DNA of 64,000 nt. Source: Vagococcus carniphilus. Its GTDB lineage: Bacteria > Bacillota > Bacilli > Lactobacillales > Vagococcaceae. Where the stretch lies: positions 16,001-80,000 of the forward strand of contig NZ_CP060720.1 in the NCBI RefSeq assembly GCF_014397115.1. Reading direction: 5' to 3'. A model generated the notes under the pieces. It made no database searches and was not told where the DNA came from. It saw nothing but the letters and a program-made list of their open reading frames with translations. Below are positions 6,030 through 63,414 of the stretch, one piece after another (positions within the stretch are counted from its first letter, which is position 1; each line of letters opens with the position of its first letter). Made by a program: the position numbers and the translations under genes.

Positions 6030-6057
6030 AAAAAAAGGAGAAAAAATTCTCCTTTTT

Positions 6058-6059
<2 letters not shown>
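6030..6059 (-). terminator. lysS transcription terminator
   Basis: Leftward hairpin with arms AAAAAGGAGAA and TTCTCCTTTTT, ending in a T run. It overlaps the lysS stop codon. Confidence 0.75.
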
Positions 6060-7640
<1,581 letters not shown>

Positions 7641-39225: not shown

Positions 39226-39257
39226 GAAACACAAGAAAGAAAAAGAACAGCTGAATA

Positions 39258-39440
39258 AAGAATCTAGAGGTTGCGAAACATCATGATTATCAAACGAGCA
39301 TAAGGATGCGACGACGTTGATAGTGAGGGATTTTCGCCGAAATGTTAAATTAGGACCTTACCTGTTTAATGTTGGGGCTATAGTGAATAACTATAGCACT
39401 GTCTCAGTCAATCTGAGGTGCGCTACGATTTGATAAATAC
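39258..39440 (+). promoter_or_regulatory. Lysine riboswitch (L box)
   Basis: The conserved L-box blocks occur in order: AGAGGTTGCG, GATTATC paired later with GTTGATAGTGAGGG, TCGCCGAA, a TTGGGGCTATAG / CTATAGCACTGTC arm, the CTCAGTCAATCTGAG hairpin and GTGCGCTAC. The outer P1 helix can form between AATCTAG (about 39261-39267) and CTACGATT. A terminator follows at 39472, so lysine binding should stop transcription of the transporter. Recognised by eye against the known L-box layout. Confidence 0.88.
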
Positions 39441-46555: not shown

Positions 46556-46582
46556 TAATAGCTCCTGTAGGGGAGAGTCTAG
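46556..46582 (-). promoter_or_regulatory. MerR/BmrR-like promoter-operator of the C45 gene
   Basis: Leftward: TAGACT (-35-like, overlapping the merR stop codon) followed by CTCCCCTACAGGAG, a CTCC / GGAG dyad, with TAAAGT about 18 bases on as a -10. Regulators such as BmrR and TipA bind a CTCC-GGAG dyad in an overlong 19-bp spacer and untwist it on activation. The arrangement suggests the upstream MerR protein activates the hydrolase gene. Confidence 0.55.
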
Positions 46583-47406
46583 TTATATTTTACAAAAATA
46601 GTTGTTACAAATTTACGTGGATCTTTTTCCTTTTTAGGTTTCACTTTATAAGTTTTTTGATTTAAATTATCTGGTACTAATCCATCTGTGTATTCTTCAA
46701 AAAACATTAATTCATCTTTTTCTGATAAATCCCTAGCTAATTTTTCATAAGCGTAAGGTAAATAAGAATACAATCCTATAAAATTCATCGACAGATAGCT
46801 TCCTTCAGGGATTCTAAATATCAATTCATTAGAAACTCCTTCAACACTATCCAATTCAAACATTAACTGAACTTCCTGTTTGCCAATCTTGCTCTTATCA
46901 CTAAAATAACCAATCAAATTTCCTTTTACTTTTAATTGATACGTAAAAATCAGTGACATTAACTCTTCTACTAATGAATCAATTTCATTAATGTTTATCC
47001 TTTTTTTGATAAAAACAAATTCTCTTTCTTTATAATAATTTATTTTGGTTCCGCTACAGTAATAATCTTTTTCTGGCAAATATTGATTTAATTTTTTTAT
47101 TGTTTTTAGTTGTTCAATTTTTAAATCTATTAACTCTCTTTCTTTCATCAAATCATTTTGCTTTTCTATTAAGTTCATCTCTATTAGGTGTGGATTATCT
47201 ATTAATTCCTTAATTTTTTTTAATGAGAAGCCTAAATCTTTTAAGTAATTAATTTTTTCTAGTTCTGAAAATTTTATATAGTCATAATATCTAAAGCCTG
47301 TTTTAGGATCGATAAATGTTGGCGTAAGTAAATCAATTTCATCATAATACCTCAATGTTTTGATTGTTGTCTTTGTAAATTTTGAAAGTTCTCCTATTGT
47401 GTACAT
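46579..47406 (-). CDS. MerR family regulator, BmrR-like
   Basis: 275 residues. N-terminal winged helix (MYTIGELSKFTKTTIKTLRYYDEIDLL, FRYYDYIKFSELEKINYLKDLGFSLKKIKEL), coiled-coil linker (about 80-110), then a C-terminal GyrI-like effector-binding region. ATG at 47406 is preceded by AGAGG; the GTG three codons earlier is inside the RBS. The C-terminal domain should bind a small, probably lipophilic or cationic ligand. Likely activates the adjacent C45 hydrolase. Confidence 0.88.
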   Translation of the reverse strand: MYTIGELSKFTKTTIKTLRYYDEIDLLTPTFIDPKTGFRYYDYIKFSELEKINYLKDLGFSLKKIKELIDNPHLIEMNLIEKQNDLMKERELIDLKIEQLKTIKKLNQYLPEKDYYCSGTKINYYKEREFVFIKKRININEIDSLVEELMSLIFTYQLKVKGNLIGYFSDKSKIGKQEVQLMFELDSVEGVSNELIFRIPEGSYLSMNFIGLYSYLPYAYEKLARDLSEKDELMFFEEYTDGLVPDNLNQKTYKVKPKKEKDPRKFVTTIFVKYN

Positions 47407-47468
47407 GTTAAGCACCTCTTTTCACTATTATATCATCTCCAAATCAATAGATTTATTCTCTTTTCCAT

Positions 47469-47833
47469 TGTGGATAATTAATAGTTGTCCACAAAAAGTT
47501 CTGCACATTTATCCACCTTGGTACAAGTGCTTTCCACAAGGTTATACACATTGTCCACAGACTTATCCACATTTTTTCTTTATTTTACCCACATTTCTAC
47601 TTTTACAAAAAATTTATCCACTTCTTTTTATCTATTTTTTTTACTACCTTTCTTGTATTTTTTTCTTTTTTCAAAAATAATTTTCTCTCTAATAACACTC
47701 TAAAAACCTTTATCTGGCAACACATTAGCAAAATACTACTCAAAAACAAACCTCTGTTCTTGTTGACTTTTCCATTGTTAATTGCATCTCTTTTCAAGAG
47801 TTATCCACACTTGTCCACAGTTTTTGTTGATAA
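47469..47833. other. Cluster of 11 DnaA boxes
   Basis: Perfect TTATCCACA at 47469-47477 (minus), 47563-47571 and 47801-47809, and TTATACACA at 47542-47550. One-mismatch boxes are at 47485-47493, 47509-47517, 47551-47559, 47585-47593, 47614-47622, 47811-47819 and 47825-47833 (minus). Nine point the same way. An AT-rich stretch of about 170 bp without boxes separates the two groups. Such density is known from oriC and from DnaA-titration clusters. No dnaA, dnaN or rpmH is in the window. Confidence 0.8.
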
Positions 47834-47931: not shown

Positions 47932-47982
47932 CTAATATATAAGCATACCAACAAAACAAACAACCCTAACAAACTTTTTCAT
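47932..47982 (-). CDS. Candidate micro-ORF in element copy B (16 residues)
   Basis: MKKFVRVVCFVGMLIY, ATG at 47982, with GGAGG about 8 bases upstream inside the loop of a TTTATTTAC / GTAAATAAA hairpin. Compared with copy A it has one extra Val codon (in-frame 3-bp indel). Translation is a hypothesis. Confidence 0.35.
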   Translation of the reverse strand: MKKFVRVVCFVGMLIY

Positions 47983-48020
47983 TTATTTACTCCTCCAAAG
48001 TAAATAAACAACTCCTTTTT

Positions 48021-48049
48021 ACCACTAGCCTGAGCTAGTGGTTTTTTTG
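48021..48049 (+). terminator. Terminator hairpin of element copy B
   Basis: ACCACTAGC CTGA GCTAGTGGT with T7 on the plus strand. The stem has a compensatory change relative to copy A. Confidence 0.8.
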
Positions 48050-48125: not shown

Positions 48126-51100
48126 CTATTCAGCTAATTCTTTTCGTTTAAATGATTTTCTTAATGCTACTAGTGTTAATAATAATAATCCAAGTCCCAT
48201 TAAATTGGTATTTTGGCTTTCTCCTGTTCGAGGAAGTCTTCCCTTACTTGTCTTAGTATTCGTCACACCATAAGATGTAGATGGTGTTTTGCCACCTGTT
48301 TTTGGTAATCTAGAAGAATGATTTGAACTTGTTCTAAGTGTATTAGTAATTGAGAAACCTGTTTCAGCATCTCCTTTGATTGTTCCTTCATATCCTAAAA
48401 TAGAAACTTCCTTAATTGTATACTTAATTGGTTTTCCATTTTTATAGATATCTAAATCAGAGAAGGCTCCTTGCCAATTTGTTTCTTCTGTTAAAATCAA
48501 TTCTTTATCTGTCTTCTTACCATCTGCAAATAACTCAACAATGATTTCATTTGGTCTTAATTTATTTTGATCATTGCTATCTTGCCATGTTTTAACAACA
48601 TCAATAGCTGTTTTACCTGGTGTATAATGATTAGTCACATCAAAACCATTCACTGTTGCAGAATAATTTTTTACTCGTTGTTCTTGTACGTTATAACGGA
48701 TTTTTTCACCTTTTTCAAACTTAGGTAAGTCACGTACTTGATATTTCCAATTAGAGGCTTTATCAACAATTATCTCATCAACTTTTTTACCATTAGCTAA
48801 TAAGTTTAATGTAATCTCGGTTGGACGCTTGCCATCTTGATTATCTTTATCTTTCCACGTTTTACTACCTTTAATCTGTGTTGTTTCTGGTATGTGAGTG
48901 TTAGCTACTGTATATCCTTTTTCTGTTGAACCTGTTAGAACACTCTCATATCCTGATACAGCTTCTTCTTCTACAGTATACTCAATCCGTTTACCTTTTT
49001 CATATTCAGCTAAATCAGTAAAGAAATCTTGCCAATTATTTTTAGCACTTAACTCTATTTTTTGAGTTGTTTCTTGTCCATTGGCTAATAGTTTAATGGT
49101 TACTTTTTCAGGTCTGATACCATCTTGATTATCTTGATCATGCCAAATTTTTGTTACTGGTATACTTATTTTTCCAGGTGTATAACTGTTAGTCACATCA
49201 AATCCTGTGTAACCAGCTTGATAATCAGATACCTGATCTTCTGTTACGGTGTAATTAACAGGTTGTCCTTTTTCAAAAGCTGGTAAATCAGTAAATTCAT
49301 AAGCCCAATTTTGCTCTTTGGAAATTGTTTTTGCTGCTTTTTCTTCTCCATTTCCATATAAGCGAATTGTCACTTTATCTGGACGTTTACCATCTTGATT
49401 ATCTTTATCTTCCCAGTTTTTAACTCCTTTAACAGAAGTCACTGCTGGTTGATGGTTGTTAACAATTGTGAAGTTACCTTTAGTTGTCTCAACCACTGTA
49501 GCTTGATATCCTTCTTTTGTGTTAACTTCTTGAACAGTGTAATGAATTAGTTTACCTTTTTGATACTCATCCAAGTCATCAAAACTTCCTTGCCAGTTTG
49601 TTTCCTCATTCAGTTTCACTTTTTTATCTGTTACTTTTCCATCAGCAACTAAAGCTACTTCTACAGAAGTTGGCCTAATACCATCTTGGTTATGTGCATC
49701 CTCCCAGACTTTTTTCACTGGAATATTTACTTTACCTGGTGTATACGTGTTGACCAAATCAAAACCTTTAATTTTTGTTTGGTAACCAGGGACTTTTTCT
49801 TCTGTTACCGTATAGTCAATAGGTTTGCCTTCTTTAAATTTAGGTAACTCTTTAAATTGATAAGTCCAATTTGTATCGGCTGTTACTTTTGTTTCCTTAA
49901 CAAATTTTCCATCAGCGTAAAGTTTAACTGTAATTGAAGTTGGACGCTTACCATCTTGGTTGTCTTTATCTTCCCAGTTTTTAGTTCCTGATACTTGCGT
50001 TGTTTCTGGTTCATGACTATTCGTCAAAATATAACTATCTTTTGAAGAGCCGCTAACACTACTTTCATACGCTGGAACTGTCTCTTCTTTAATTGTATAA
50101 TCAATTAATTTTCCATCTTCGTACTCATCTAAATTAGCGAAACTTCCTTGCCAGTTTGTTCCTTGGCTTAATACTAATTTTTCTTTTGTTTCCTTCCCAT
50201 TCGCAAGTAAACGAACTGTCACGAAACTTGGACGTTTACCATCTTGATTATTGTTATCTTCCCAAACTTTAATGACTGGAACACTTACTTTATCTGGTGT
50301 ATGAGTATTTAGAATATTATTTCCTTGATACGTTGCCTGATACTCAGGGACTTGATGTTCCACAACTGTATAGTTGATTGCTTCACCTTTATCGTATTTT
50401 GGTAATTGATCAAAAGTGTAACTCCATTTAGTTTTCTCTGATACCTTTTCTTCTTTTACATACTTACCATCAGCGTAAAGTTTAACTGTAATTGAAGCTG
50501 GGCGTTTGCCATCTTGGTTGTCTTTATCTTCCCAGTTTTTAGTTCCTGATACTTTCGTTGTTTCTGGTGTATGAACATTTGTTACAACAAAAGATGTTTT
50601 TCTATCTCCTGTCACTAAACTTTCATAACCTAAAACAGCTTTTTCTTTCACTTGATAATCGATTAACTGTCCATTTTGATATTCATCTAAGTTATCAAAA
50701 CTTCCTTGCCAATGATTAGTTTCGTTTAATACAAGAGATTTCCCTGTATCCTTCCCATCTTTCCACAACTGAACTGATACAAAACCTGGGCGTTTGCCAT
50801 CTTGGTTATTCTTATCTTCCCATACCTTTACAACAGGAACACTTACTTTGCCTGGTGTGTGAGTGTTGATAGTATCATACCCATCTTGACTTGCTTGATA
50901 GTCTGAAATTTGTTCTTCTGAAATGGTGTAACTGATTGGTTTTCCCTGCTCAAATTTAGGTAAATTTTCAAATGAATATTTCCAGTCATCACTTTTTGAA
51001 ACTTCTTTTGATTGAATGGTTTTACCATTTGCTCTTAAGTTAACTTTTATCGATGACGCACGTTTACCGTCTTGATTATCGTTATCTTTCCAAATTTTTC

Positions 51101-54100
51101 TTCCCTCAACCGATGTTGTTTCCGGTACGTATGTATTAGTAATCTCAAAATTACCTTTAGAAACTTCTTCTGTAGAAGAGGCGTAGCCTTTAGGTAGTTC
51201 TGTTACTTCTTTTACAGTATATGAAATAACTTTCCCATTCTTTTTAAGGGGTAAATTATTCCATTGTTTCTTCCAATCATTTGACTTAGATAAAACTTCT
51301 TCTTCGCCAACTTTTTCGTTATCTCCGTAAAGTTGAACATGAATACTATTTAATCGAATACCATCTTGATCATTCTTATCTTCCCAATTTTTCACAGCTG
51401 TTACATTTGTTTTTTCAGGTGTATAGCGGTTTGTTATATCAAAACCATTAATTTCAACACTATACCCAGGTACTGCTGTCTCTGTTACAGTATATTTAAT
51501 TTCTTCCCCTTGGTCGTACTTAGCCAATTTTTGGAAAGTGTATTCCCAATTTTGATCAGCTGATGTTTCTTTTGAATCAATTTTTTTACCATCAGCCCAA
51601 AGGTTAACTTCTATTTTTTCTGGACGTTTATGGTCTCTGTTTTGATCGTCTTCCCAAATTTTCTTACCCTTAACTTGGGTTGTCTTAGGTGTGTATTTAT
51701 TAACAATTTCATAACCACCATTCTTAGAAACAATCTCTGGTTTTTCATAAGCTGGTACAAGAGATTCTTTGATTGAATAATTAATTAATTCTTTTTTCTC
51801 ATTGTGTTTTCTCAAACCTTTAAAACTGTCTTGCCATTGATTCGCTTCTAATAAGGTTAATGTTTTATCTGTTTCCTTACCATTTTCTAGTAATGTCACG
51901 TTGATAAAATCAGGACGTTTACCATCTCTGTTTTGATCATCTTCCCAGATTTTTTTTACTGGAATATCTAAATACTCTATTTTTTCATTTTCAATATTTG
52001 GAATACTTGATTTGAGTTCGATAACACCAGAGTCACTAATAACTTCAAAAGGAACATCTTGTTGTTTCACTTCGTAACCATCTGGTGGCGTTAACTCTCT
52101 AATGTTGTAATTACCAACTGGTAGACCTGTGACTTTAACAACTCCAGTATTATCAGAAGTTAACTGTTGTTTCACTTCTTTTGACATTTGTATTTCACTA
52201 TCTACCCACTTAACCGCATAACGACTATCTAAACCATTGTAAAAACGATTATCTTGATTCATAATCGCAAAAGTTGCTCCTGCAATTCCTTTTTTCGTTT
52301 GACTATCTATTTTTTTGAAAGCAATTCGTGGAATATCATTTTTTACAACTAGTTTTTCAAAACTCTTTGTAGCCGTATCTTTTTCAAATTGAACCACTTT
52401 TCCTTGTTGCAATTCTTTGCTAACAGTAAATCCTTCTGGTGCTTGTGTTTCGAAAAGCAGATAATTAGATTTCGCTCTCAAATTACCAAATCTAAGTTCA
52501 CCTTTTTCATTTGTTTCTCCTGAACGAACTAGACGTTTTTTCTGACCATTCGATTCTGACCATAATTCAAATTTAGCTCCTGCTAAAGGTTTTTCATCTT
52601 TTGAATTTTTATCAACTTTAACAATTGTTACTGATGCACTAGATCCTTCAGCCGTTCCACCTGTTACAACAACTTCTTTTTCAGAACTAATTTCTTCTGA
52701 AATAACTTGTTCGTTTTCACCTTTTATAGCTAACTTATTTGATACCGTATCATTTTTTAAACTTGAATTAATTGCTGAGCGATACTCTAAATAGTAGGCT
52801 GTATCAATTTCTTTTAAGAACTTAATCGTTAAAACTTGCTGTCCTGTTTCATTGTTACTCTTTAAATCAACAGAATAATCTTTGCCCTGTTCTAACTCTT
52901 CTTTTGAATTTTTAGTAATTTTTCCTTCAATAGATACATGGGTCCCAAAAATCTTAATCGATTGTTCATCAATGATTTGATTAGGAGACGGTGTATCAAT
53001 GATTGTTACGTCCTTCAAAGTTGATTGAGATGGATTGATTTTTACATCCCAATTAACAAACTCTCCTTTTTGATCCCCTGATTTAGTCGCAAAAACACCA
53101 CCATTTTTCGCTTCAGTTGAAGCGTCTACCTCTACTTCATGGTCTTTATTTTTATAGGTTGCTTTATTATAGTAGCGTCCTTTTCCAATTATAGTTTCAT
53201 CTAAAGTCGTATCAAATTTTAAGACATAAACTTTGTTGGTTTTTTCTGGTAGATTAACAGTTATTTTTTCATCTTCTATTTTAGCAACATTAGGAACTTC
53301 CTTAATTAATCCGGCTAAATTACCGTTTTCATACAGGTGCCCTTCATAAACTTTAACACTTTCTGGTACTAATTTTTGATTATCACCAATAATAGGATCA
53401 ACAATTGTGGCATTTTCTAAAGTATCTTGGTTATAGTTAACAATTACTGACCAGTTCATTTTTTTAGTTTTTGCATTGTAGCTGACTTCTTTTTTAGCGT
53501 CATCTACGAATTCTTTATCGACTTTAACGTCCTTATTAGCATCATTATGGTACGTTTTACCATCTTTATCTTTCCAACTAGTTTCTACTTTGTTGTTGAA
53601 TTTTTCATCACGTCTCTTAAAATCTGTTTCATAATAAATTTCATAGGTCTTATCTGTTTTTTCAGCACGTGCTCCTAAAAATACTACCTCAAATGAATGC
53701 TCTGTATTGGTTAATTTGTAATCTACGCCTTCTTTTAATGGTTCTTGATTGCCAGCTTCTCTTAGCTTAAAGCTATCTCGATTAAAAGTTAAATTATCGG
53801 TCATCGTATCTGTTAAAGACCAATTACGTAATTCATACCTATATTTATTAACCGTAATATCCCATTTCATCTTACGATTACGATAATCTATTCTGACGTC
53901 TTTTGTTACACCATTTCGATTAATTTGACCCTCTTTGACATCTTTGATATTTGTATCTGTTTCAACGGTGTTTTTAAAATTAATTTTTTCATTTGATAAA
54001 TTATCATCTATGACAATATTAGCTTTTGTTAAATAATTAATCGTTACTGCTTTATCTAAACCATTTGGAAACGTGATAGTCATTTGTTTGGTTTTATCAT

Positions 54101-55541
54101 TAAATGTCACCACATAATCCTCTTTAGCTAATTTGTTATTATTTAAGTCCCTAATTTCTACTGAATCTTTATCGTAATCTAAGACATCGCTTGCTAAAGT
54201 ATCTGTTATATAGCTTCCTTTTTTAAGTGTTTTCTCACCAGAGTTATAATCAATGGTCCAACTATAAATATGTCCATTTCCTGAAGATACTTCTCTACCA
54301 CCAGACTTAGCAATTAACTGTTTGTAATATTGATTTGCACTGGCTTTTGCCTTATAGTCCTCTTTGTTGTTATTTAATGTTGCCGTGTTTTCGAACGTTA
54401 CATAGCCACCTTCATAAGGAATTTTACTGTCCAAAATTTTAGTGTCATAGACTAATTCAAAAGATTCTCTTGTTTTAGCATATTTACCAATAAAGGTAAC
54501 TACACTTCCATCCAGAATATAATCTGTTCCTTCTACTAAAGGCGTCTCACTAATAGAAGCAATACTTCCATCTAAATTAAGTGTTTGAGAGTAAATTTTT
54601 AAACTCTCTAGTTCTGTTCCATCTGGTAGGGGATCAGAGACAGTTGCATTTTGTAGTAAATCTAAGGTTTTATTAATAGATACTCGCCAAGTAATTTTTT
54701 TGTTATCTGTAAGCCCATCAAATGTCTTTTCAATAGCTTTTACATTTTTAGGACGAACATTAACAATGATTGATTCAACTTCGTCATTAACAGGTGTTGA
54801 TATCTTATGTTCTCCTGCAAGTATTTCTTTACTTAAACTTTTAGCATACTCTGTTGTTCCAAAGATATCATGTTCTTTTTCCACTAACTCATTAAATTCC
54901 CAACGAATTCTTCCATCTGCTGTTATTTCATAAGTTCCATAAACTTTATCATCTTTACCATTCAAATCGTATTTCCCAGGTTCAATTATCATTTTTCCTG
55001 GTAGTTTCGTTTCGTAATAATCGCCAGCTTGAAGCAACTCTTCACTTAATAATCTTTCAGGTATTTCCCAATCATATTCAAGTCTGATCGTTGCATCTAT
55101 CGGAATAGATTCTTTTTCATGGTCAAGCAAATTACCTTTTTTGTCATAAACCTCAATTGATGCTCCCGTAAAGAACTTTTCTGGAGAAATCATTTTATCC
55201 TTGATGTTAATTGGTTCTCTTTCTTCAGATTCTTTTTTAGTAGCTTGTTTTTTTAATGCTTTTGGTTGACTCTCTTCATTATTCTTTGTCACTTCTTTTT
55301 CTGAAGATACTGTACTTTCTTCTATCTTTTCTTTACTATCAGAAGACTGATTTAATTCTTCTGTCGATTGACTAGTTGCCAAGATATCATCTAATTGCGA
55401 TGACTCACTTGTCTCCTTTACTTCACTAATTACCGTTTCACTAGCCATCGTTCCGACAACTGCTTGAACAGGTTGGATTACTGTAGAAAATAAAATAGTT
55501 CCTACCGCAAAAAGTGAATACCATTTTTTAAATTGTTTCAT
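48126..55541 (-). CDS. Giant Cna_B-repeat LPXTG surface protein
   Basis: 2471 residues. Signal peptide 1-28 (KKWYSLFAVGTILFSTVIQP), a Ser/Glu-rich linker (about 35-110), then several beta-sandwich adhesin modules (about 115-960) with repeated ITWRVSINK / MKWDITVNKY / MNWSVIVNYNQ starts, like collagen-binding-type Ig folds. Two SpaA/prealbumin domains follow (AGAKFELWSES..., AGATFAIMNQD...), then 13 Cna_B domains from about residue 1190 to 2400, and the C-terminal anchor. Cna_B cores have KxWED at the start, YTVxE and a terminal TN, the residues expected to form Lys-Asn isopeptide bonds. Two sortase motifs, LPKTGG (2412) and LPRTGE (2436), precede the membrane segment. Own terminator. Host or matrix attachment is inferred. 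Confidence 0.92.
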   Translation of the reverse strand: MKQFKKWYSLFAVGTILFSTVIQPVQAVVGTMASETVISEVKETSESSQLDDILATSQSTEELNQSSDSKEKIEESTVSSEKEVTKNNEESQPKALKKQATKKESEEREPINIKDKMISPEKFFTGASIEVYDKKGNLLDHEKESIPIDATIRLEYDWEIPERLLSEELLQAGDYYETKLPGKMIIEPGKYDLNGKDDKVYGTYEITADGRIRWEFNELVEKEHDIFGTTEYAKSLSKEILAGEHKISTPVNDEVESIIVNVRPKNVKAIEKTFDGLTDNKKITWRVSINKTLDLLQNATVSDPLPDGTELESLKIYSQTLNLDGSIASISETPLVEGTDYILDGSVVTFIGKYAKTRESFELVYDTKILDSKIPYEGGYVTFENTATLNNNKEDYKAKASANQYYKQLIAKSGGREVSSGNGHIYSWTIDYNSGEKTLKKGSYITDTLASDVLDYDKDSVEIRDLNNNKLAKEDYVVTFNDKTKQMTITFPNGLDKAVTINYLTKANIVIDDNLSNEKINFKNTVETDTNIKDVKEGQINRNGVTKDVRIDYRNRKMKWDITVNKYRYELRNWSLTDTMTDNLTFNRDSFKLREAGNQEPLKEGVDYKLTNTEHSFEVVFLGARAEKTDKTYEIYYETDFKRRDEKFNNKVETSWKDKDGKTYHNDANKDVKVDKEFVDDAKKEVSYNAKTKKMNWSVIVNYNQDTLENATIVDPIIGDNQKLVPESVKVYEGHLYENGNLAGLIKEVPNVAKIEDEKITVNLPEKTNKVYVLKFDTTLDETIIGKGRYYNKATYKNKDHEVEVDASTEAKNGGVFATKSGDQKGEFVNWDVKINPSQSTLKDVTIIDTPSPNQIIDEQSIKIFGTHVSIEGKITKNSKEELEQGKDYSVDLKSNNETGQQVLTIKFLKEIDTAYYLEYRSAINSSLKNDTVSNKLAIKGENEQVISEEISSEKEVVVTGGTAEGSSASVTIVKVDKNSKDEKPLAGAKFELWSESNGQKKRLVRSGETNEKGELRFGNLRAKSNYLLFETQAPEGFTVSKELQQGKVVQFEKDTATKSFEKLVVKNDIPRIAFKKIDSQTKKGIAGATFAIMNQDNRFYNGLDSRYAVKWVDSEIQMSKEVKQQLTSDNTGVVKVTGLPVGNYNIRELTPPDGYEVKQQDVPFEVISDSGVIELKSSIPNIENEKIEYLDIPVKKIWEDDQNRDGKRPDFINVTLLENGKETDKTLTLLEANQWQDSFKGLRKHNEKKELINYSIKESLVPAYEKPEIVSKNGGYEIVNKYTPKTTQVKGKKIWEDDQNRDHKRPEKIEVNLWADGKKIDSKETSADQNWEYTFQKLAKYDQGEEIKYTVTETAVPGYSVEINGFDITNRYTPEKTNVTAVKNWEDKNDQDGIRLNSIHVQLYGDNEKVGEEEVLSKSNDWKKQWNNLPLKKNGKVISYTVKEVTELPKGYASSTEEVSKGNFEITNTYVPETTSVEGRKIWKDNDNQDGKRASSIKVNLRANGKTIQSKEVSKSDDWKYSFENLPKFEQGKPISYTISEEQISDYQASQDGYDTINTHTPGKVSVPVVKVWEDKNNQDGKRPGFVSVQLWKDGKDTGKSLVLNETNHWQGSFDNLDEYQNGQLIDYQVKEKAVLGYESLVTGDRKTSFVVTNVHTPETTKVSGTKNWEDKDNQDGKRPASITVKLYADGKYVKEEKVSEKTKWSYTFDQLPKYDKGEAINYTVVEHQVPEYQATYQGNNILNTHTPDKVSVPVIKVWEDNNNQDGKRPSFVTVRLLANGKETKEKLVLSQGTNWQGSFANLDEYEDGKLIDYTIKEETVPAYESSVSGSSKDSYILTNSHEPETTQVSGTKNWEDKDNQDGKRPTSITVKLYADGKFVKETKVTADTNWTYQFKELPKFKEGKPIDYTVTEEKVPGYQTKIKGFDLVNTYTPGKVNIPVKKVWEDAHNQDGIRPTSVEVALVADGKVTDKKVKLNEETNWQGSFDDLDEYQKGKLIHYTVQEVNTKEGYQATVVETTKGNFTIVNNHQPAVTSVKGVKNWEDKDNQDGKRPDKVTIRLYGNGEEKAAKTISKEQNWAYEFTDLPAFEKGQPVNYTVTEDQVSDYQAGYTGFDVTNSYTPGKISIPVTKIWHDQDNQDGIRPEKVTIKLLANGQETTQKIELSAKNNWQDFFTDLAEYEKGKRIEYTVEEEAVSGYESVLTGSTEKGYTVANTHIPETTQIKGSKTWKDKDNQDGKRPTEITLNLLANGKKVDEIIVDKASNWKYQVRDLPKFEKGEKIRYNVQEQRVKNYSATVNGFDVTNHYTPGKTAIDVVKTWQDSNDQNKLRPNEIIVELFADGKKTDKELILTEETNWQGAFSDLDIYKNGKPIKYTIKEVSILGYEGTIKGDAETGFSITNTLRTSSNHSSRLPKTGGKTPSTSYGVTNTKTSKGRLPRTGESQNTNLMGLGLLLLTLVALRKSFKRKELAE
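48330..51968 (-). repeat. Thirteen tandem Cna_B domains in alternating A/B order
   Basis: Units of about 90-98 codons. Odd units carry NWQGSFxxLDEY and end in TNxHxPETT. Even units carry WxYxFxxLPKF and end in NTYTPGKVS. The true duplication unit is therefore the pair, about 185 codons or 555 bp. The linker NWEDKDNQDGKRP is the most conserved DNA stretch. Confidence 0.8.
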
Positions 55542-55623
55542 TCTAACTCATCCTTTTCTTTTATTTTAAAAATTTGACTAAGCTAAATGGAGTAGCAAAG
55601 CCCTTCCCTTTTCAACTACAACA

Positions 55624-55648
55624 AAAAAAGCCCGTATTAGAGCTTTTT
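55624..55648 (-). terminator. Terminator-like hairpin in the adhesin leader
   Basis: Leftward AAAGCTC / GGGCTTT stem (one T-G pair) with a T7 tail, 80-100 bp before the adhesin start codon. Either an attenuator or a 5'-end stem-loop. Confidence 0.45.
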
Positions 55649-55774
55649 ACATGCCTACTTAGTATAGTCAATTCACTTTTCAAAATTTTATCTCTTTTTA
55701 TATAGGTGTCTGTAATTTTTAGAAATATTGGTTTTGTTTTTTTATTTATCCCTCCTTTTAATTTTCAAGTAGAC

Positions 55775-55798
55775 TAATCAAAAAAATTTTTTTGATTA
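55775..55798. repeat. Perfect 24-bp palindrome
   Basis: Arms TAATCAAAAAAA and TTTTTTTGATTA with no loop. Could be a regulator site or a structural element. Confidence 0.6.
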
Positions 55799-56017
55799 AC
55801 TTACATTGTTTTTAAAATAACAAAGAGACATAATAGTAATTTTTAAACTTTAATGAATTGTCAAATTGCTTTCATTTATTTTTCCTAAATTTCACAAAAT
55901 AAATTATAATAAACGTTATATAAAAAGAATGATTATTAACTAGATTTAACAAAAAGGCAAAATTTTTAGTATATTTTTATATTTTAGTCGAAAAAAAGGT
56001 CTTTTTTTTAACAAAAA

Positions 56018-56057
56018 AAAACATCCAGATAGTTTCACCTAATTTTCTGGATGTTTT
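56018..56057 (-). terminator. Pilus operon terminator
   Basis: Leftward AAAACATCCAGA / TCTGGATGTTTT stem followed by TTTT, 40 bp past the last sortase gene. Confidence 0.8.
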
Positions 56058-56097
56058 CATTATTTTAAAATTTAATTTAAGTTTGTGAATTTTATAT

Positions 56098-57246
56098 TTA
56101 TTTAGTTAATACTATACGTATTCGATGATTCTTTTGAATAACAGAAATTGATTTATTTTTAGTTTTTAACCACTTCATTTTCTTTTCTTTTAATAAAGTG
56201 ACACCAAAAGTTCCCAATATTTTTTTAGGATTCTTTCTTAAAGCTAAATCATACTGTCCTCCTGGTAATTTATCAATTCCGATTTGCCCATCATTTTGAC
56301 TAGTAAGCACAACTAATTGTCCGTTTCGCTTCAACGGTTTTTTGCTATTTTTTCGGTAAATAATAAACTCTTCTGCTACAATAGGTAACTTCTTAGTTTG
56401 ACTAATATAAAAAGTGACATCATAATATTTCTTACTCAGCAAGTATTGAACAATCAGTCGGTAACTTACAAAAATACTGCCAAGCAAGAATAGTCCAATA
56501 CCAACTATTATTGCTACTTGCTGCCATTTAAACTTTTTCTGACTCGCGTTTGCTTTTTTCTTCATCTCATCAGTCACCGGGATTCGCTTACCCGTCACGA
56601 TTAATCGATGGCTATTAATCATATAAGGGGTACACGTTAAGAGTGTGACTAAGTCTGATTCTGGCTCTAGTTTTAAAAAGTCAGTTTCATCAGGTTTGAC
56701 TGTTCTTATTTCAACCACTTCATACGCCAAAGTTTCCCCAACAGATTCAACTAAGAAAAAATCCTCTTTTTTTAGTTGATCTAAATGTCTGAAAAGCAGT
56801 CTTTCTGCTAAACCACGATGTGCTGAAATAACAGAATGCGTTCCTTTACCTCCAGTTGGCATCGATGTTCCTTGTAAAACACCTGCTCCATTTTCTAATA
56901 TTTGATTCGTAATAGTATCAAATAAAGGAATTGAAACATCTATTTTAGGGATACTCACCGAACCAATTAAATGTTCTTTTAAATCAATTGAAGTCGTATC
57001 AACTTGGCTAGCATCAAAAGGATCATGTTGAACAACTAAACCGTTCACTTTTATAGCATTGTTTTTCTTCTTCATCTGGTTCTCTTTTTGAGAATTTTCT
57101 ATCTGTTCTCTTTTTGCTAATTCTTTTAAACGGTACTGATCAATGAAGTAATTAGCCGCATTACTATAAAAAGGATAAGTAAAAACTAAACATCCTAGTA
57201 AAAAAATTAATAGTAAACCTAATTTTTTTATGACTATTTTTTTCAT
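56098..57246 (-). CDS. Class C sortase, second of two, with C-terminal extension
   Basis: 382 residues; class C sortases are usually about 250-300. Membrane segment 8-28, lid motif DPF (75-77), catalytic His143 (SVISAHRGL), Cys205 (TLLTCTPYM) and Arg214. The second membrane segment is about 243-262. About 120 residues follow, with a beta-rich pattern (FIIYRKN, GQIGIDKLPGGQYDLALRK) resembling the GxYxLxE end of SpaA/Cna_B domains. By topology this tail would be cytoplasmic. It should polymerise pilin subunits. Six bp after the other sortase gene; last gene of the pilus operon. Confidence 0.9.
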   Translation of the reverse strand: MKKIVIKKLGLLLIFLLGCLVFTYPFYSNAANYFIDQYRLKELAKREQIENSQKENQMKKKNNAIKVNGLVVQHDPFDASQVDTTSIDLKEHLIGSVSIPKIDVSIPLFDTITNQILENGAGVLQGTSMPTGGKGTHSVISAHRGLAERLLFRHLDQLKKEDFFLVESVGETLAYEVVEIRTVKPDETDFLKLEPESDLVTLLTCTPYMINSHRLIVTGKRIPVTDEMKKKANASQKKFKWQQVAIIVGIGLFLLGSIFVSYRLIVQYLLSKKYYDVTFYISQTKKLPIVAEEFIIYRKNSKKPLKRNGQLVVLTSQNDGQIGIDKLPGGQYDLALRKNPKKILGTFGVTLLKEKKMKWLKTKNKSISVIQKNHRIRIVLTK

Positions 57247-57252
57247 TTTTTA

Positions 57253-58392
57253 CTACTCCTTACTAACTTTCAATTCCCATTGACTATCGCTTTTTTTGGA
57301 CAAACAAGTCGAGAAATAAGTATCTTTATAATGTTTAACAAAACAAATAATTTCTAATGATTTACCTTTTTCTTCTTTTGGTATTAACAAATATCTACCA
57401 CCCTTTATTCCTTTAAGACGAATCTCACCCTTTGTATTACTCTTTGTTTCAATTAACGAAGGATTTTTTTTGGAATCGACTAATACAAAAGATTGATTAG
57501 CTTCACTAATTCCATCATAAAGTACTTGTACTTTCAAACGGTAACGTCTTCCCGTAATTTGATAATTAATATACTGTCTATAAATCACGTATAACAATAA
57601 ACTCACTAGAGATATTAGCAACATCAAATAAAATACTAATGCAATATTATTTTTCTTATTAATTTCTTGCTCTTTTTGCTTCATTTGTTTTTGATCAACA
57701 GGTACTCGGTGACCTCTTACTAATAAGCGATGCGTATTGACCATATAAGGAGTACAAGTAACTAGCGTTAAATAATCCTCGCCTTCTTGTATTTTTAAGT
57801 CATCCAATTGATTAGGTAAAACCGTTTTGATTTGATCTACTTTATAAGCTAAATTCTTTTCTGCTATCTTTAAATAAATCACATCACCTATCACTAAATC
57901 CTTTAAATCAGTAAATAGTTTTTTACTTGGTAATCCTGTATGTCCTGTTAAGACAGCGTGACTGCTTTTACCACCCGTTGGATAAGATGAACCAGGAAGT
58001 AACGTGATACCTTCTTGTAAAAAAGAAGGAGTTGTTTCATCAAAAATCGGTAATTGACTATTTATTTTGGGGATACTAATCGAACCAATCAGATGTTCAC
58101 TTATTTCATTTTTAGTTAAAGGGCTGCTTTTTTCTACTTCATCAAATAGCTCTGTTTCAAGTTGAATCCCTAATGTAGGATTATTCTTTATTTCTTCAGC
58201 TCGTTTTCTTTCTTTCTGCTGTTGTTTTTCTGCCTCTTGCTCTGTTTGTTTTGATAACTGCTCAATTCGGTAATGATCAATCTGTGCATTAAGAATATTC
58301 GCAACAAATGGATACAAAAAGGTAAAGGCACCTACTACAAAAGTCGTTACTATTGCTAATTTTAATATAATAGCTTTTCTTTCTGATGTCAT
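57253..58392 (-). CDS. Class C sortase, first of two, with C-terminal extension
   Basis: 379 residues. Membrane segment about 10-32, then a Gln/Glu/Lys-rich stretch (48-68). Catalytic His151 (HAVLTGHTGL), Cys213 (TLVTCTPYM), Arg222. Second membrane segment about 249-270. A tail of about 110 residues has SFVLVDSKKNPSLIETKSNT and GEIRLKGIKGGRYLLIPKE, again SpaA-like. No DP(F/W/Y) lid motif was found in the usual place; the region reads LGIQLETELFDEVEKS. Lies after the backbone pilin gene, beyond an intercistronic hairpin. Joins pilins covalently through LPXTG and pilin-motif lysine. Confidence 0.9.
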   Translation of the reverse strand: MTSERKAIILKLAIVTTFVVGAFTFLYPFVANILNAQIDHYRIEQLSKQTEQEAEKQQQKERKRAEEIKNNPTLGIQLETELFDEVEKSSPLTKNEISEHLIGSISIPKINSQLPIFDETTPSFLQEGITLLPGSSYPTGGKSSHAVLTGHTGLPSKKLFTDLKDLVIGDVIYLKIAEKNLAYKVDQIKTVLPNQLDDLKIQEGEDYLTLVTCTPYMVNTHRLLVRGHRVPVDQKQMKQKEQEINKKNNIALVFYLMLLISLVSLLLYVIYRQYINYQITGRRYRLKVQVLYDGISEANQSFVLVDSKKNPSLIETKSNTKGEIRLKGIKGGRYLLIPKEEKGKSLEIICFVKHYKDTYFSTCLSKKSDSQWELKVSKE

Positions 58393-58420
58393 TTTCTCCC
58401 CACCTTTTCCCCTAAGAACA

Positions 58421-58453
58421 AAAAAGCTGAAACATTTTGGCTTCAGCTTTTTA
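58421..58453 (-). terminator. Intercistronic hairpin, pilin to sortase
   Basis: Leftward AAAAAGCTGAAGC / GTTTCAGCTTTTTT stem with T run, between the backbone pilin gene and the sortase genes. Likely attenuates sortase expression relative to pilin. Confidence 0.7.
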
Positions 58454-58463
58454 TTTTATCACG

Positions 58464-59993
58464 TTAAATCTCTGTTTCAACTTTACTACGACGGTACCAT
58501 ACTGCTGCACCAGCCATTAATATACTACCTGCTACTAAGAATAAATAGATACCATTACCACCTGTTGATGGTAACAACCCTTTTTTAATATTTTTTACAG
58601 ATAGGACTTCTGTTTCAAATTGATCTTTAACAACATCAAACATAACTGGTTTATCAAGTATCGCATAACCACTTGGTGCTTCATATTCAACTACTGCATA
58701 AGAAATACCTGTTGGTAATTTTTCTGAATACTCTAAACCTGTTACTTCAAATTGACCTGATGCATTTGATTCAAAAGAAGTGGCATTATCTTTTGCTTCA
58801 TTCCAAGTATACTTACCATTTAGATAAGTTGCATATGAAATGATCTTACCTTCTGTATTCACTTTAACTAAATTAAATTTAGCTCCTGCTAATACTTTAC
58901 CACTTTTATCATCAATTTTTTTGAATTTTTTACCACCTGTATATACTTTAGGCCCAACAACAGGTGGATCAGTTGGATCTTCTGGTTCTCCTGGTTCACC
59001 ATTAACATTTGTCCCAAGTTCTACTTTAGCTTCGTTATTAATTCCTGTATCAATTTTAGCATCTTCTGTTAAAATAGCATCATAAGAAATACTAGCTCTT
59101 TTTCCAGCTAATGCTCTCACTTTTTCTGATGTTGAATCAAACTCAATAATAAACCCTCTTGTAGTGCTATCTGTTTTAATTGTATAGTCTTTATCTTTTT
59201 CAAGACCTTGGACCACAACTGTTTCAATTAAAACTTGCATTCCTTCATTTGGTGTATCTGTTACACGGTAGAAATCTTTATCTTTAATATTCCATGGTAA
59301 TAAAGCTGACAGACCATAAGTAAAAGGGACTCCTTTTTCAACATTATAGACAGTTTCTCCATTAATTTGTACGGCTAATTTTTGTTTTGTTTCTTCTGTT
59401 AAATCTTTTTCTAACATAGCTTCTTTTTCATTTTTAGGATACACATGAATATTAGGATTAATTTCATCCGTGTTTCCTCTATAGATTGGCATCGTTAAAA
59501 CGATTGGTGCTGCTTTTTCTTTAATATTACCTGGTGAATTCGTTTCAACAAATAAATACGTTGCATAATTACCATCTTTTTTGATAGGTAAATTAGCAAA
59601 TGTTGCTATACCTTCTCCCGCTGTTTTTTGTGTTCCCACTTTATTAGCGTAATCTGGTGCATAATTAGAAGTTTTTGCATTGGCTACAATTTCTGCTGTC
59701 GCTTCTTCAGCTGTTTTAGTATCAAGTAACTCTATATATTTACTTGAAACATCGTAAACTTCAAAAGTAACACCGTTTAAAGGTTCTCCTCCAAAATCAG
59801 GCATTTCTTCTCCTGTATTTTGTTTTGGATAAGGATTCTCTCCTGAAGCTCCTTTTTCAAAAACACGTTTGTGTAAATTCACCGTAACTTGATCAACTTC
59901 TGCGGCGTTTACTTCAGTAGCTAGCGTTAAACTGGCTAGAAGTGGAAACATCAGCACTAAAATTGACATTAATTTCCCTAATTTCTTATTCAT
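58464..59993 (-). CDS. Major (backbone) pilin, LPXTG
   Basis: 509 residues. Signal peptide 1-31, Cna_B/SpaA-type domains with isopeptide layout, pilin motif NPNIHVYPKN (Lys187 is the polymerisation lysine), E-box YAVVEYEAPSGY, and sorting signal LPSTGG followed by membrane segment and RRSKVETEI. Pilin motif plus E-box identifies the shaft subunit. Overlaps the minor pilin gene by 8 bp (translational coupling) and is followed by a hairpin. Confidence 0.92.
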   Translation of the reverse strand: MNKKLGKLMSILVLMFPLLASLTLATEVNAAEVDQVTVNLHKRVFEKGASGENPYPKQNTGEEMPDFGGEPLNGVTFEVYDVSSKYIELLDTKTAEEATAEIVANAKTSNYAPDYANKVGTQKTAGEGIATFANLPIKKDGNYATYLFVETNSPGNIKEKAAPIVLTMPIYRGNTDEINPNIHVYPKNEKEAMLEKDLTEETKQKLAVQINGETVYNVEKGVPFTYGLSALLPWNIKDKDFYRVTDTPNEGMQVLIETVVVQGLEKDKDYTIKTDSTTRGFIIEFDSTSEKVRALAGKRASISYDAILTEDAKIDTGINNEAKVELGTNVNGEPGEPEDPTDPPVVGPKVYTGGKKFKKIDDKSGKVLAGAKFNLVKVNTEGKIISYATYLNGKYTWNEAKDNATSFESNASGQFEVTGLEYSEKLPTGISYAVVEYEAPSGYAILDKPVMFDVVKDQFETEVLSVKNIKKGLLPSTGGNGIYLFLVAGSILMAGAAVWYRRSKVETEI

Positions 59994-61005
59994 TTTCTTT
60001 TCCCCTTTTCATGTATTTTAATGCAACAAACATCATTATTAATCCTAAACTAGAAAAAGCAAAAACACTTTCTCCCGTTTTGGGAAGTAATCTTATTTTA
60101 GGTATTTCTTTACTTGTTGTGACTGGTTCATTTAAAACCTTAGGTGTTGCTTGATTTATTACCTTTTTAGGTAGTTCCCCTGCTATTTTTGATTCTAATA
60201 TTTCATGATTGAGCGTCATTTGAATATTCTCCTGATCTTTATTAGAAACAACAAGGGGAATTTTTTTTGATTCAGCGGTTATTGAAAAACCAAGAGGTGC
60301 TTCAATTTCCTCAAAATAATATGTCCCAACTGGTAAGATGATATGTGGTAACATAACTAATCCATTTGAATCAGATTTAAGCCGCATCGCTTCTTGTTTA
60401 TTGGTTAAAACCTGCCAACTAGTAGATTCTACTTGTGTTAAATACTCTTTTTCATTTTTGGCATTCATTCGATAAAAAATAAAGATAGCATTTTCTAAAG
60501 GTTTTTGATAAGACCCTGAGCTGTATTTAAAAAAGTAAGCAGTGGGCGTTAAACTAACTGGTTTTGTTTCCACTAACATCGTCATTTCTTCTAGTGCTTC
60601 AAAAGAAATATAATTAGGTAATGCTTCGTACAACTCATCCTCACTTTCTTTACTTGCCTCAGGTTGATTTTGAAGAATAACATAAAAGGCAGGTTCACCT
60701 AGTCTATTCTTAGGAAGATAAAGAATAGCTTGATTCGAATCATCTACTAAAAACTCTTGCATTTTCTCTATCTGATTTTTCTCCAAATAGTCTCTTGTTT
60801 TTTTAGTGGACGTTTCTACTTTTTGACTTAATGCCTCGTTATATTCTTTCTTTGATAAACCATAAATTGAAAAAGAAGTATTATTAGCTGATTGATTATT
60901 GTGTTTAAAGTGAATGGCAACTTGTTCTTCAGCTCGCACTTCCAAGGTAGATATACTTATTAAAGAAAATAAGAAAAGACTAAACCATAATATAAGACGT
61001 TTCAT
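59986..61005 (-). CDS. Minor pilin, LPXTG
   Basis: 339 residues. Signal peptide 1-26 (ending EVRAEE), a first domain with LPKNRLGEPAFYVILQN, and a SpaA-like domain with the E-box-like YYFEEIEAPLGFSI. Sorting signal LPKTGE, membrane segment, KRGKENE tail. Probably the base or ancillary subunit. Its ATG directly follows the TAA of the tip gene, and its end overlaps the backbone gene. Confidence 0.88.
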   Translation of the reverse strand: MKRLILWFSLFLFSLISISTLEVRAEEQVAIHFKHNNQSANNTSFSIYGLSKKEYNEALSQKVETSTKKTRDYLEKNQIEKMQEFLVDDSNQAILYLPKNRLGEPAFYVILQNQPEASKESEDELYEALPNYISFEALEEMTMLVETKPVSLTPTAYFFKYSSGSYQKPLENAIFIFYRMNAKNEKEYLTQVESTSWQVLTNKQEAMRLKSDSNGLVMLPHIILPVGTYYFEEIEAPLGFSITAESKKIPLVVSNKDQENIQMTLNHEILESKIAGELPKKVINQATPKVLNEPVTTSKEIPKIRLLPKTGESVFAFSSLGLIMMFVALKYMKRGKENE

Positions 61006-63414
61006 TTAGTGCCACCCCTTTCGGCTACGATAGATATAGTAACTACCTAGCGCCAGTGTCAGCAGCATCCAAAAACTTGCAATAGTTATAAATCGACTCG
61101 TTCCACTACCACCTGTTTGAGGCAACACACCACCAGGAGCCTTTTCTTTATTTTTAACAAGTAACTCAAATTGATTATCTGGTCTATTTAATTCGACCAT
61201 CTCTGATAAAGTATCCTCTAAAGTCACTTCTCCATATTTATTAATCGAAACCAGAATGCTTTCTTCTAATAAATCATAACCTGTTGGTGCAATGATTTCT
61301 TTGATTTCATAAGTTCCTGTTTTTAATTTCTCAAAGTTTATTCGGCCTTCTTCATCACTTGTATGAGTTGATATTAATTCTTTATTTGAGCCTGTTACTT
61401 GATATAATTCAAACACGGCTCCTGATAAATATTTATCCTCTTCTTTCGCCCTTTTGATTAAATGAAGTGTCGTTTCTCTAACAATTGTTACTTTTTCTTC
61501 GGGCTCTTTTGGATGCTCAGGATCTTCTGGGTCTGTCACCTTGGCAATATTAGTCACTTCGCCTTCTGCTGCATCTGTTTTAGCTTTAACATCAATAGTA
61601 ACTTCAGCCATTTGGTTACCACTAAGTTCTGGAATAACAACCTTAAATTGATTGCCTAAAATCTCCCCTACTTCTTTGCCATTTAATTTTAGGTTACCAA
61701 CTATTTCAATTCCTTCTGGCATCGTATCTTCTACGACTAAATCTTTCAAAAGACTATCTTTAACTGTATTTTTAACAGTTATCTTGTAAGTAAATGTTTC
61801 TCCTGGTTGAAGTATTTTTTTGCTTGCTTCCTTTTGAGCTGTAAATTCTCCTTTGGGACGTTTCGCCTTGTTACTAATAGCTAAAATAATGCCGTATTTA
61901 GCAGATTCGTCAATTGTAAAATCATAGTGCTTATCTGGATCGAATTCAATTCCCTCTGGTGCTCCTATCTCTTTTGCATAATAGTTTCCTTGAACTAAAT
62001 CAGGAAGTTCAATACGCCCATTTTTATCTGTCACTAAGTTTTCTCCACCTGGTGCTAGTGAACCATCTTCACGATAAACATTAAAAGTAACACCTGGAAG
62101 AAGAGGTTGCTCTCCCCACATTGTATCTCCAATTTGTTTCTTTTTAATGATCCATAAGGTCCCCTTAATTGGTCTGGCTGTAGCATCAGGATAAGTAACA
62201 GGAACTACGACATTGTCTGGCTCAATTTTTTCTTCTTGTCCTACTCGATGATAAGTTTCTACAATGTCGTTTCTAACAGTTTCTGGTTTAACTGTTTTAG
62301 CAATATCTGTTAATTTAACTCGGTAATAGATATCAACTAAATAGCCATTTGCCTTATCTTTATCAAACGTCATTTTAAAACTACGATCATCTTCAAAATG
62401 AAACGTTCCATATCCATTTCCTTCAAATTCTTCAATGGACATTTGTTTATTTCCCAATCCAGCTTTACTAATATAATTAATCTCCATAAACTTCATTGCA
62501 TATGGTGTAACAAATTCTGATTCATCTGGAAAATACTGATACTCACCTAATGTATCTACGAAAGAAATATCACTCTCAACATCATACTCTTCTGCCTTGA
62601 CTTGAACTCGGTATTCAACAACATCAAAATTATAATCACTCTTAATTCCACCTGTTTTAAAAAACATCTTTGCTGTGCCTGTTCCAGGATCATAAACATT
62701 TTCCCAAACAATATAAGGTTTTTCAGGTAAATCTGTCCCCAAATTGCTAGTTAGCTCTAGTTCTTTATATCTTTGACCTTCGGGAGTAATAAATAACTCT
62801 CCTTCTTCATCAACATTGATTTCCCCAGATACAGGTATTGTTAATTTTCCTGAAAGTTCTTTGTAATTAGCAACATTCTCATTAAAAGTTACTTTAACAT
62901 TGGCACCTATAATATCCATCACTCCATATTGAACGCCATCATCATTCACAACAGGTATTTCCAATGCGTTAGTACCTTTTAAATGACTAGGAAGTGACAA
63001 ACTCAATGTGTCTCCTGGCTGTACTTGATAATCTTCTTTTGAAGAAAAATTTACGGTTATATAATCTTTAGCTGAGCGCTTTGTTCTTTCTGGCAACTCA
63101 AAATCATCAACAAATCCTGCCTGATTTAACTCTTTTGTCTGATTATCAATAAACATTACTTTTTCCATCTTTTCATTTGTCACCACTTGTGTAGATTTTA
63201 CATTCCTCAACTGGTGGGATGAATCATTCGTCAAATATAATTTACGTGATGATTCTTCTTCTGTTGGTAATTTTTTGTGAAATACACTTCCAGTATTTTT
63301 TTCTATGATAGAATCGTTTGTTTGGGCTGCAATTAGTTGTATTGGTTGTAAAAAAAATGATAATAAAAGAACCAGTAAAGAGAGAAACAAATATCCCCTT
63401 TTTTTCTTTTTCAT
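61006..63414 (-). CDS. Pilus tip adhesin, LPXTG
   Basis: 802 residues. Signal peptide 1-30. Two N-terminal Ig-like adhesin modules (about 110-400, VQPGDTLSLSLPSHLK, PYIVWENVYDPGTGTAKMFF). A SpaA domain follows (PGVTFNVYREDGSL, NYYAKEIGAPEGIEF), then a DUF11-like domain (ETFTYKITVKNTVKDSLLKDLVVEDTMPEGIEIVG, read in two parts), a second SpaA domain (SGAVFELYQVTGSN, YEIKEIIAPTGYD) and LPQTGG. No von Willebrand A domain was seen. First gene of the operon; RBS GAGGAGG is about 11 bases before ATG. Confidence 0.88.
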   Translation of the reverse strand: MKKKKRGYLFLSLLVLLLSFFLQPIQLIAAQTNDSIIEKNTGSVFHKKLPTEEESSRKLYLTNDSSHQLRNVKSTQVVTNEKMEKVMFIDNQTKELNQAGFVDDFELPERTKRSAKDYITVNFSSKEDYQVQPGDTLSLSLPSHLKGTNALEIPVVNDDGVQYGVMDIIGANVKVTFNENVANYKELSGKLTIPVSGEINVDEEGELFITPEGQRYKELELTSNLGTDLPEKPYIVWENVYDPGTGTAKMFFKTGGIKSDYNFDVVEYRVQVKAEEYDVESDISFVDTLGEYQYFPDESEFVTPYAMKFMEINYISKAGLGNKQMSIEEFEGNGYGTFHFEDDRSFKMTFDKDKANGYLVDIYYRVKLTDIAKTVKPETVRNDIVETYHRVGQEEKIEPDNVVVPVTYPDATARPIKGTLWIIKKKQIGDTMWGEQPLLPGVTFNVYREDGSLAPGGENLVTDKNGRIELPDLVQGNYYAKEIGAPEGIEFDPDKHYDFTIDESAKYGIILAISNKAKRPKGEFTAQKEASKKILQPGETFTYKITVKNTVKDSLLKDLVVEDTMPEGIEIVGNLKLNGKEVGEILGNQFKVVIPELSGNQMAEVTIDVKAKTDAAEGEVTNIAKVTDPEDPEHPKEPEEKVTIVRETTLHLIKRAKEEDKYLSGAVFELYQVTGSNKELISTHTSDEEGRINFEKLKTGTYEIKEIIAPTGYDLLEESILVSINKYGEVTLEDTLSEMVELNRPDNQFELLVKNKEKAPGGVLPQTGGSGTSRFITIASFWMLLTLALGSYYIYRSRKGWH

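Follow-up and report, generated by a model that had tools for sequence, protein, structure and literature searches.

The window analysed here is a 64-kb stretch of Vagococcus carniphilus DNA, comprising bases 16001-80000 of a 3.02-Mb contig (contig 1). A cluster of DnaA boxes lies at 47469-47833 of the window. On its left is a MerR-family open reading frame (ORF; 46579-47415, minus strand), whose start is 54 bp from the start of the cluster. Between the cluster and pepV, the region 48126-63414 (minus strand) holds genes for large LPXTG-type surface proteins and sortase-like genes, as judged by reading; among 11 relatives, only genome G002 has a shorter ORF related to this block at the same place. 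A candidate small RNA at 47962-48049 (plus strand) is a full-length match to the Rfam family Ref84 (Enterococcus sRNA 84), below the gathering score (34.8 versus 52 bits, E = 0.026) and with a terminator-like hairpin by reading; weak Ref84 matches lie beside the cluster also at locus L179 (G003, E = 0.23) and locus L181 (G005, E = 0.31), and none at L178. At 39257-39433 (plus strand), a lysine riboswitch is located upstream of a fused substrate-binding/permease amino-acid transporter, which suggests that this transporter serves lysine uptake. The pth-to-rrn block is transcribed leftward, just as the first-pass annotation of the window had described. A search of the 64-kb window for the parS consensus gave no match at up to two mismatches.

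A dense cluster of DnaA boxes in non-coding DNA

Within the 365 bp of the cluster, 12 sites match the DnaA box TTATNCACA with at most one mismatch, four of them exactly and eight with one mismatch; the earlier count of four exact sites stands, while that of seven one-mismatch sites falls one short. The sites form a left group (47469-47622) and a right group (47801-47833), as follows, with each box given in window coordinates.

47469..47833, no strand: entire cluster of DnaA boxes (left plus right group); shared by all 14 Vagococcus genomes
47469..47477, minus: box B1; an exact match here, within one mismatch in all 14 genomes
47485..47493, plus: box B2; one mismatch here, within one mismatch in 10 of 14
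47499..47507, plus: box B3; one mismatch here, within one mismatch in 12 of 14
47509..47517, plus: one-mismatch box; none at the same place in 11 relatives
47542..47550, plus: box B4, which opens the core triplet; exact, at most one mismatch in 14 of 14
47551..47559, plus: box B5, which abuts B4; one mismatch here, within one mismatch in 10 of 14 and two mismatches in the remaining four
47563..47571, plus: box B6, 3 bp past B5 ('double DnaA box' spacing); exact in 13 of 14 genomes, this one among them
47585..47593, plus: box B7; one mismatch, seen in 5 of 12 genomes
47614..47622, plus: one-mismatch box from the box scan
47623..47800, no strand: spacer between the groups; B4-to-R1 distance 259-260 bp in five genomes, 137-139 bp in six
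47801..47809, plus: box R1; an exact match, paired with R2 in 11 of 14
47811..47819, plus: box R2, 1 bp past R1; one mismatch
47825..47833, minus: box R3, on the opposite strand; one mismatch here, within one mismatch in 10 of the 11 genomes with the right group

All four exact matches to TTATNCACA in the 64-kb window fall inside the cluster. When the window was dinucleotide-shuffled 300 times, the maximum per 365 bp never exceeded 5 boxes (mean 3.75), compared with the 12 observed, and shuffling the 365 bp of the cluster itself reached 12 boxes in 0 of 2000 trials. Across the 64-kb window there is no excess of boxes, either at up to one mismatch (83 sites versus 90 expected) or among exact matches (4 versus 3.7 expected); thus, the unusual feature is the clustering alone. 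These results confirm that the cluster is real. The only ORFs that overlap the boxes are short (64, 72, and 106 aa as listed), so that the locus consists, as a DnaA-box cluster does, of boxes grouped in non-coding DNA outside oriC. The gap between the two groups had been described as AT-rich, and at 73.6% AT, versus 65.6% for the window, it is; however, the flanks are also 72-75% AT, indicating that the gap is not special in this respect.

Order and spacing of the boxes are conserved while the neighbouring genes change

Combining a DNA search with an inspection of larger stretches and of PepV-flanking loci, we found the cluster with the same order and spacing in 14 of 14 Vagococcus genomes (12 from larger stretches, the window included, and G006 and G013 from PepV-flanking loci); short low-complexity matches from the DNA search were excluded from this count. 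Measured from the minus-strand box B1, the plus-strand boxes B2, B3, B4, B5, and B6 lie at offsets of about 15, 30, 72, 81, and 93 bp. In particular, B1, B3, B4, B5, and B6, each with at most two mismatches, occur at 0/30/72/81/93 ± 2 bp in all 14 genomes, and boxes with at most one mismatch are found at the expected places (± 2 bp) for B1 in 14, B2 in 10, B3 in 12, B4 in 14, B5 in 10, and B6 in 13 of the 14. B2 is absent from G006, G009, G010, and G013. The right group, with R1, R2, and the opposite-strand R3 at offsets 0, 10, and 24, is present in 11 of the 14 genomes and absent from G009, G010, and G013. When 13 of the 14 genomes (all but G006) were sorted into three groups by cluster form and not by a tree, the segment B4-B6 was 90-94% identical between groups, while the 33-nt linker before B4 was 41-56% identical, against a shuffled baseline of 29%. 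Despite these diverging linkers, the B3-B4 spacing is constant at 42-44 bp. The rigid spacing of the boxes suggests, on the evidence of sequence comparison, an ordered assembly.

The cluster lies within about 6 kb of pepV and/or an amino-acid ABC transporter in 12 genomes, and within the same distance of pepV in G006 and G013. The PepV protein of G005 scored above the cut-off for NF005591 and TIGR01886, and the transporter, which here has the lysine riboswitch, was recognised by the Pfam domains SBP_bac_3 and BPD_transp_1. The genes that touch the cluster vary between species in the 12 genomes compared, indicating that the cluster is tied to no one promoter.

The cluster lies near the origin, which is probably at dnaA

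The first-pass annotation reported no dnaA nearby, which is true of the window; on the same contig, however, dnaA-dnaN lies about 92-94 kb away. The block has the canonical rpmH-dnaA-dnaN order: dnaA occupies about 155.8-157.1 kb (minus strand), flanked by rpmH, rnpA, and a yidC-like gene to one side and by dnaN, recF, and gyrB to the other (names from reading of the ORFs; dnaN confirmed by TIGR00663). The dnaA gene is here in two frames (locus L005, about 5758-7102; contig 1, 155.76-157.10 kb), split near an A-rich run between the parts encoding the ATPase and the DNA-binding domain; the 12 relatives whose locus is unbroken have it as a single frame, so the split is likely a sequencing error.

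The cluster is thus about 92-94 kb, or about 3% of the contig, from oriC. In the eight genomes that have the cluster and dnaA on one contig, including G006 (about 66.9 kb, 3.3%, if its contig is circular), the cluster-dnaA distance is 62.8-93.6 kb, equal to 2.96-3.74% of the contig, and in all eight the cluster lies to the downstream side of dnaA, its orientation with respect to that gene being unchanged. The presence of the cluster in every Vagococcus genome compared, its similar relative distance from oriC, and its fixed spacing amid changing genes are together good evidence of selection on the DnaA assembly itself.

Of the 8-kb intervals between the start of the contig and 152 kb, all 18 readable ones have a negative GC skew, both sides of the cluster included; the skew is near zero at 152-160 kb and positive in the next eight intervals, up to 224 kb, one of them at only +0.008. 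Among 32 two-kb intervals, three are slightly positive and none of these adjoins the cluster. The skew therefore does not change sign at the cluster and switches only past dnaA. DnaA boxes together with a DnaA-trio make up the layout of the basal unwinding system (BUS) (PMC8287927). A strict DnaA-trio, (TA[CT]) repeated three or more times, follows dnaA on its downstream side in all 12 relatives examined (G006 left out) and occurs next to the boxes in 0 of 14 clusters; the strict motif was used instead of the relaxed published pattern, (NAN)x3, which fits almost any T-rich tract. In this genome, a tract TACTACTATTACTAT follows DnaA-box-like sites downstream of dnaA, as read by eye. The true origin is likely at the dnaA block; by these features, the cluster does not resemble one.

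We also examined how exact boxes are placed on contig 1, taken as a circle (127 of the 128 counted were placed). Of all TTATCCACA sites, 47 of 52 lie in the origin-proximal half. Outside the three clusters, the figure is 40 of 45, versus 31 of 56 for the reversed box, the one control word used (Fisher p = 3.6e-4). The exact forms TTATACACA and TTATTCACA show no significant origin-proximal bias on this contig. Boxes also crowd near oriC in E. coli (PMC12371093).

A second cluster lies between rlmH and htrA

A separate DnaA-box cluster lies between rlmH, presumably the gene named yydA in B. subtilis, and htrA (contig 1, 2616969-2617067; loci L233 and L215). This second cluster sits beside rlmH in 14 of 14 Vagococcus genomes and comprises six boxes at 0, 10, 22, 64, 77, and 90 or in mirror image; the set is complete in 10 genomes, and four or five of the six boxes are present in the other four. 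Opposite rlmH, the cluster is flanked by htrA in 13 of the 14 loci; in G010 htrA is farther off, by reading. The rlmH-htrA cluster is at the position of the B. subtilis yydA cluster. By comparison, the Vagococcus loci of tsaD, which we take to be gcp, have no cluster within 1.5 kb, with at most three boxes in the best 400 bp across the 14 genomes. The pepV/ABC-transporter cluster does not occupy the orthologous place of a known B. subtilis cluster, which is not a defining trait of the kind.

The core triplet recurs at other addresses

In 15 genomes from seven other genera of the family, no cluster was found near pepV. Around the top-scoring pepV match, to a distance of 1.5 kb, the 400 bp richest in boxes held no exact and at most three one-mismatch boxes; a cluster farther off than these 1.5 kb would be missed, as it would have been in several Vagococcus genomes. 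The triplet pattern is absent from the whole genomes of the same 15, a pattern that also missed Vagococcus G006 and G013, whose triplets are diverged. That none was found at pepV indicates that related bacteria do without one there.

The core triplet TTATNNNCANTNTCCACANNNTTATCCACA, with offsets 0, 9, and 21, was sought in one genome per species and occurs in at least 120 stretches, of which 80 loci are listed as a sample and not a census. Among these 80 listed loci, 62 are intergenic by a rough ORF test. In 15 of them, tsaD is present with the triplet within about 300 bp on its 3′ side, one of the 15 being judged from a fragment at the end of the locus. Eight hold htrA, two of these by weak matches (39% and 31% identity, 1-2 kb from the triplet), and two hold rlmH; one locus is shared, so that 9 of the 80 have htrA and/or rlmH. 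Three hold dnaA/dnaN, and three are from Vagococcus (Vagococcus sp. DIV0080, V. silagei, and V. fluvialis bH819). In most of the 80 listed loci, no recurrent neighbour was recognised. The triplet lies within 2.5 kb of a YraN-like gene in six listed loci (L059, L080, L096, L101, L106, and L107) and of a MraZ-like gene in four (L070, L094, L121, and L123); these loci are mostly from Patescibacteria, and both names come from reading one protein per group.

Within the order, 18 of 395 genomes carry the 0/9/21 triplet, 12 of them Vagococcus and six from one other genus, in which all six loci contain htrA; the reversed pattern occurs in 0 of 395. The neighbouring spacing 0/10/22 occurs in 3 of 148 genomes of the order, always between rlmH and htrA, and since the sample sizes are unequal and 0/10/22 is the form of another cluster, the two counts do not make a clean test of spacing. 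Its carriers are the present genome, G027 from another genus of the family (L256), and G156 from another genus of the order (L254). The case of G027 indicates that other genera of the family do have DnaA-box clusters, none of which was found at pepV.

DISCUSSION

We consider it probable, on the sequence features described above, that the locus is of the same kind as the extra-oriC DnaA-box clusters of B. subtilis, that its place is new and specific to the genus, and that it restrains initiation by binding DnaA. The first-pass annotation had offered oriC or a DnaA-titration locus. The skew, the DnaA-trio, and the place of dnaA speak against the former; titration fits, since the cluster is conserved and origin-proximal, stands apart from dnaA, and does not depend on any particular neighbour. 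DnaA would bind cooperatively at the triplet B4-B5-B6, at B1-B3 upstream, and usually at the right group downstream, with B5-B6 forming a pair, 3 bp apart, of the kind that E. coli DnaA prefers. Lying about 3% of the contig from oriC, the locus would be copied soon after initiation, and the additional copies of the cluster would capture free DnaA and so delay another round. For Vagococcus, we infer DnaA occupancy of the cluster and an effect on replication timing. Also in favour of this reading are the recurrence of the triplet beside tsaD and htrA/rlmH, the early initiation seen when B. subtilis clusters are removed, and the origin-proximal crowding of TTATCCACA sites. Against titration, fixed spacing is not an evident requirement of a passive sink, no cluster was found at this place in 15 genomes from other genera of the family, the right group or B2 is missing in some Vagococcus genomes, and the box forms TTATACACA and TTATTCACA are not significantly crowded toward the origin.

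Three other readings were weighed and rejected. Intergenic DNA is AT-rich and the number of boxes across the window is at chance level, as a build-up by chance or through repeats would have it; the shuffles and the spacing conserved in 14 genomes refute this, and its probability is negligible. DnaA acts elsewhere as a transcription factor, and the boxes here are directly upstream of the MerR-family ORF (46579-47415, minus strand), as in a DnaA-controlled promoter region. Yet, in 11 relatives, the 14-15 kb around the cluster hold no relative of this ORF, and the flanks differ: in G005 the cluster lies between the convergent 3′ ends of the transporter gene and pepV, in G010 the transporter is inverted, and G001, G004, G007, G008, G011, and G012 have other genes. 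We therefore reject the promoter of one gene as an explanation and regard control of a promoter as very unlikely. A second or former chromosomal origin would account for a box density that is oriC-like (score 20, versus 19 for the region upstream of dnaA). The cluster, however, shows no change in skew, a strict DnaA-trio is missing from all 14 clusters, the rpmH-dnaA-dnaN-recF-gyrB block is elsewhere, and the layout of the boxes is unlike that around dnaA; on skew, trio, and the location of dnaA, this reading is rejected as extremely improbable.

The remaining alternative is an ordered regulatory machine in place of a sink: DnaA on the rigid boxes would change its nucleotide state or be handed on, as at E. 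coli datA or DARS. The spacing kept while linkers diverge would suit such a machine, as would the 'double DnaA box' form of B5-B6: E. coli DnaA favours two boxes separated by 2 or 3 bp, an inserted base between paired boxes greatly lowers binding, and datA and oriC carry gagTTATCCACAg (PMC11317965), to be compared with the B5-B6 spacer gac here and gag in several relatives. Cooperative binding alone would, however, also explain fixed spacing, and datA depends on IHF (PMC5295017); we judge this reading unlikely. In a broader form, which we put forward tentatively and with considerable doubt, a spacing-constrained module (0/9/21 plus a box about 42 bp before it) would extend from Clostridia to Lactobacillales, would have moved among tsaD, htrA/rlmH, and pepV, and would act as an ordered, gene-independent machine regulating DnaA and not as a passive sink. 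If this were true, the module would be the Gram-positive functional counterpart of datA and DARS.

Under titration by an extra-oriC cluster, the reading that we prefer, the locus bears on the question of what restricts initiation to one round per cycle in bacteria beyond E. coli. The combination of rigid spacing with a moving address is to us the interesting part. Titles and opening lines of abstracts on DnaA in Vagococcus, Enterococcus faecalis, and the order mention no such cluster; the pepV/ABC-transporter address did not appear in the literature found, the kind itself being known. The main paper on the B. subtilis DnaA-box clusters (DBC) is reportedly that of Okumura et al. (2012).

According to two reviews, removal of six B. 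subtilis clusters leads to early initiation (PMC5295017; PMC13220808), which is partly relieved when one cluster is put back at various places (PMC5295017). About tenfold overproduction of DnaA did not cause over-initiation in B. subtilis (PMC13220808), and B. subtilis is set in contrast to E. coli in PMC5295017, so that both reviews give grounds for caution about the role of the clusters. On the importance of these clusters, reviews differ (PMC5295017; PMC13220808).

Three known systems provide a comparison. Like oriC and its BUS, the Vagococcus cluster has dense DnaA boxes, some of them abutting or 3 bp apart; unlike them, it is without a strict DnaA-trio, dnaA/dnaN, or a skew switch. With datA, DARS1, and DARS2 of E. 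coli it shares non-coding boxes away from oriC, a conserved relative distance (reported for E. coli in PMC5010248), and close double boxes. The E. coli sites are marked, in addition, by promoting DnaA-ATP hydrolysis or ADP release and by binding of IHF or Fis between the boxes. The B. subtilis high-affinity DnaA regions include, according to PMC4447404, those downstream of gcp and ydiF and upstream of yydA; five regions (gcp/ydiF, yydA, ywcI/vpr, ywlC, and yqeG/sda) have 7-11 sites each, and a sixth, trmE, has four. The Vagococcus cluster differs from these in its place at pepV or the amino-acid ABC transporter, a place where this analysis found a cluster only in Vagococcus, and from the gcp cluster in that the Vagococcus tsaD loci are without one. 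It resembles them in having about 10 boxes, in lying, in G005, between convergent 3′ ends as the gcp/ydiF cluster does, and in its 0/9/21 triplet, which in other bacteria stands beside tsaD (gcp) and htrA/rlmH.
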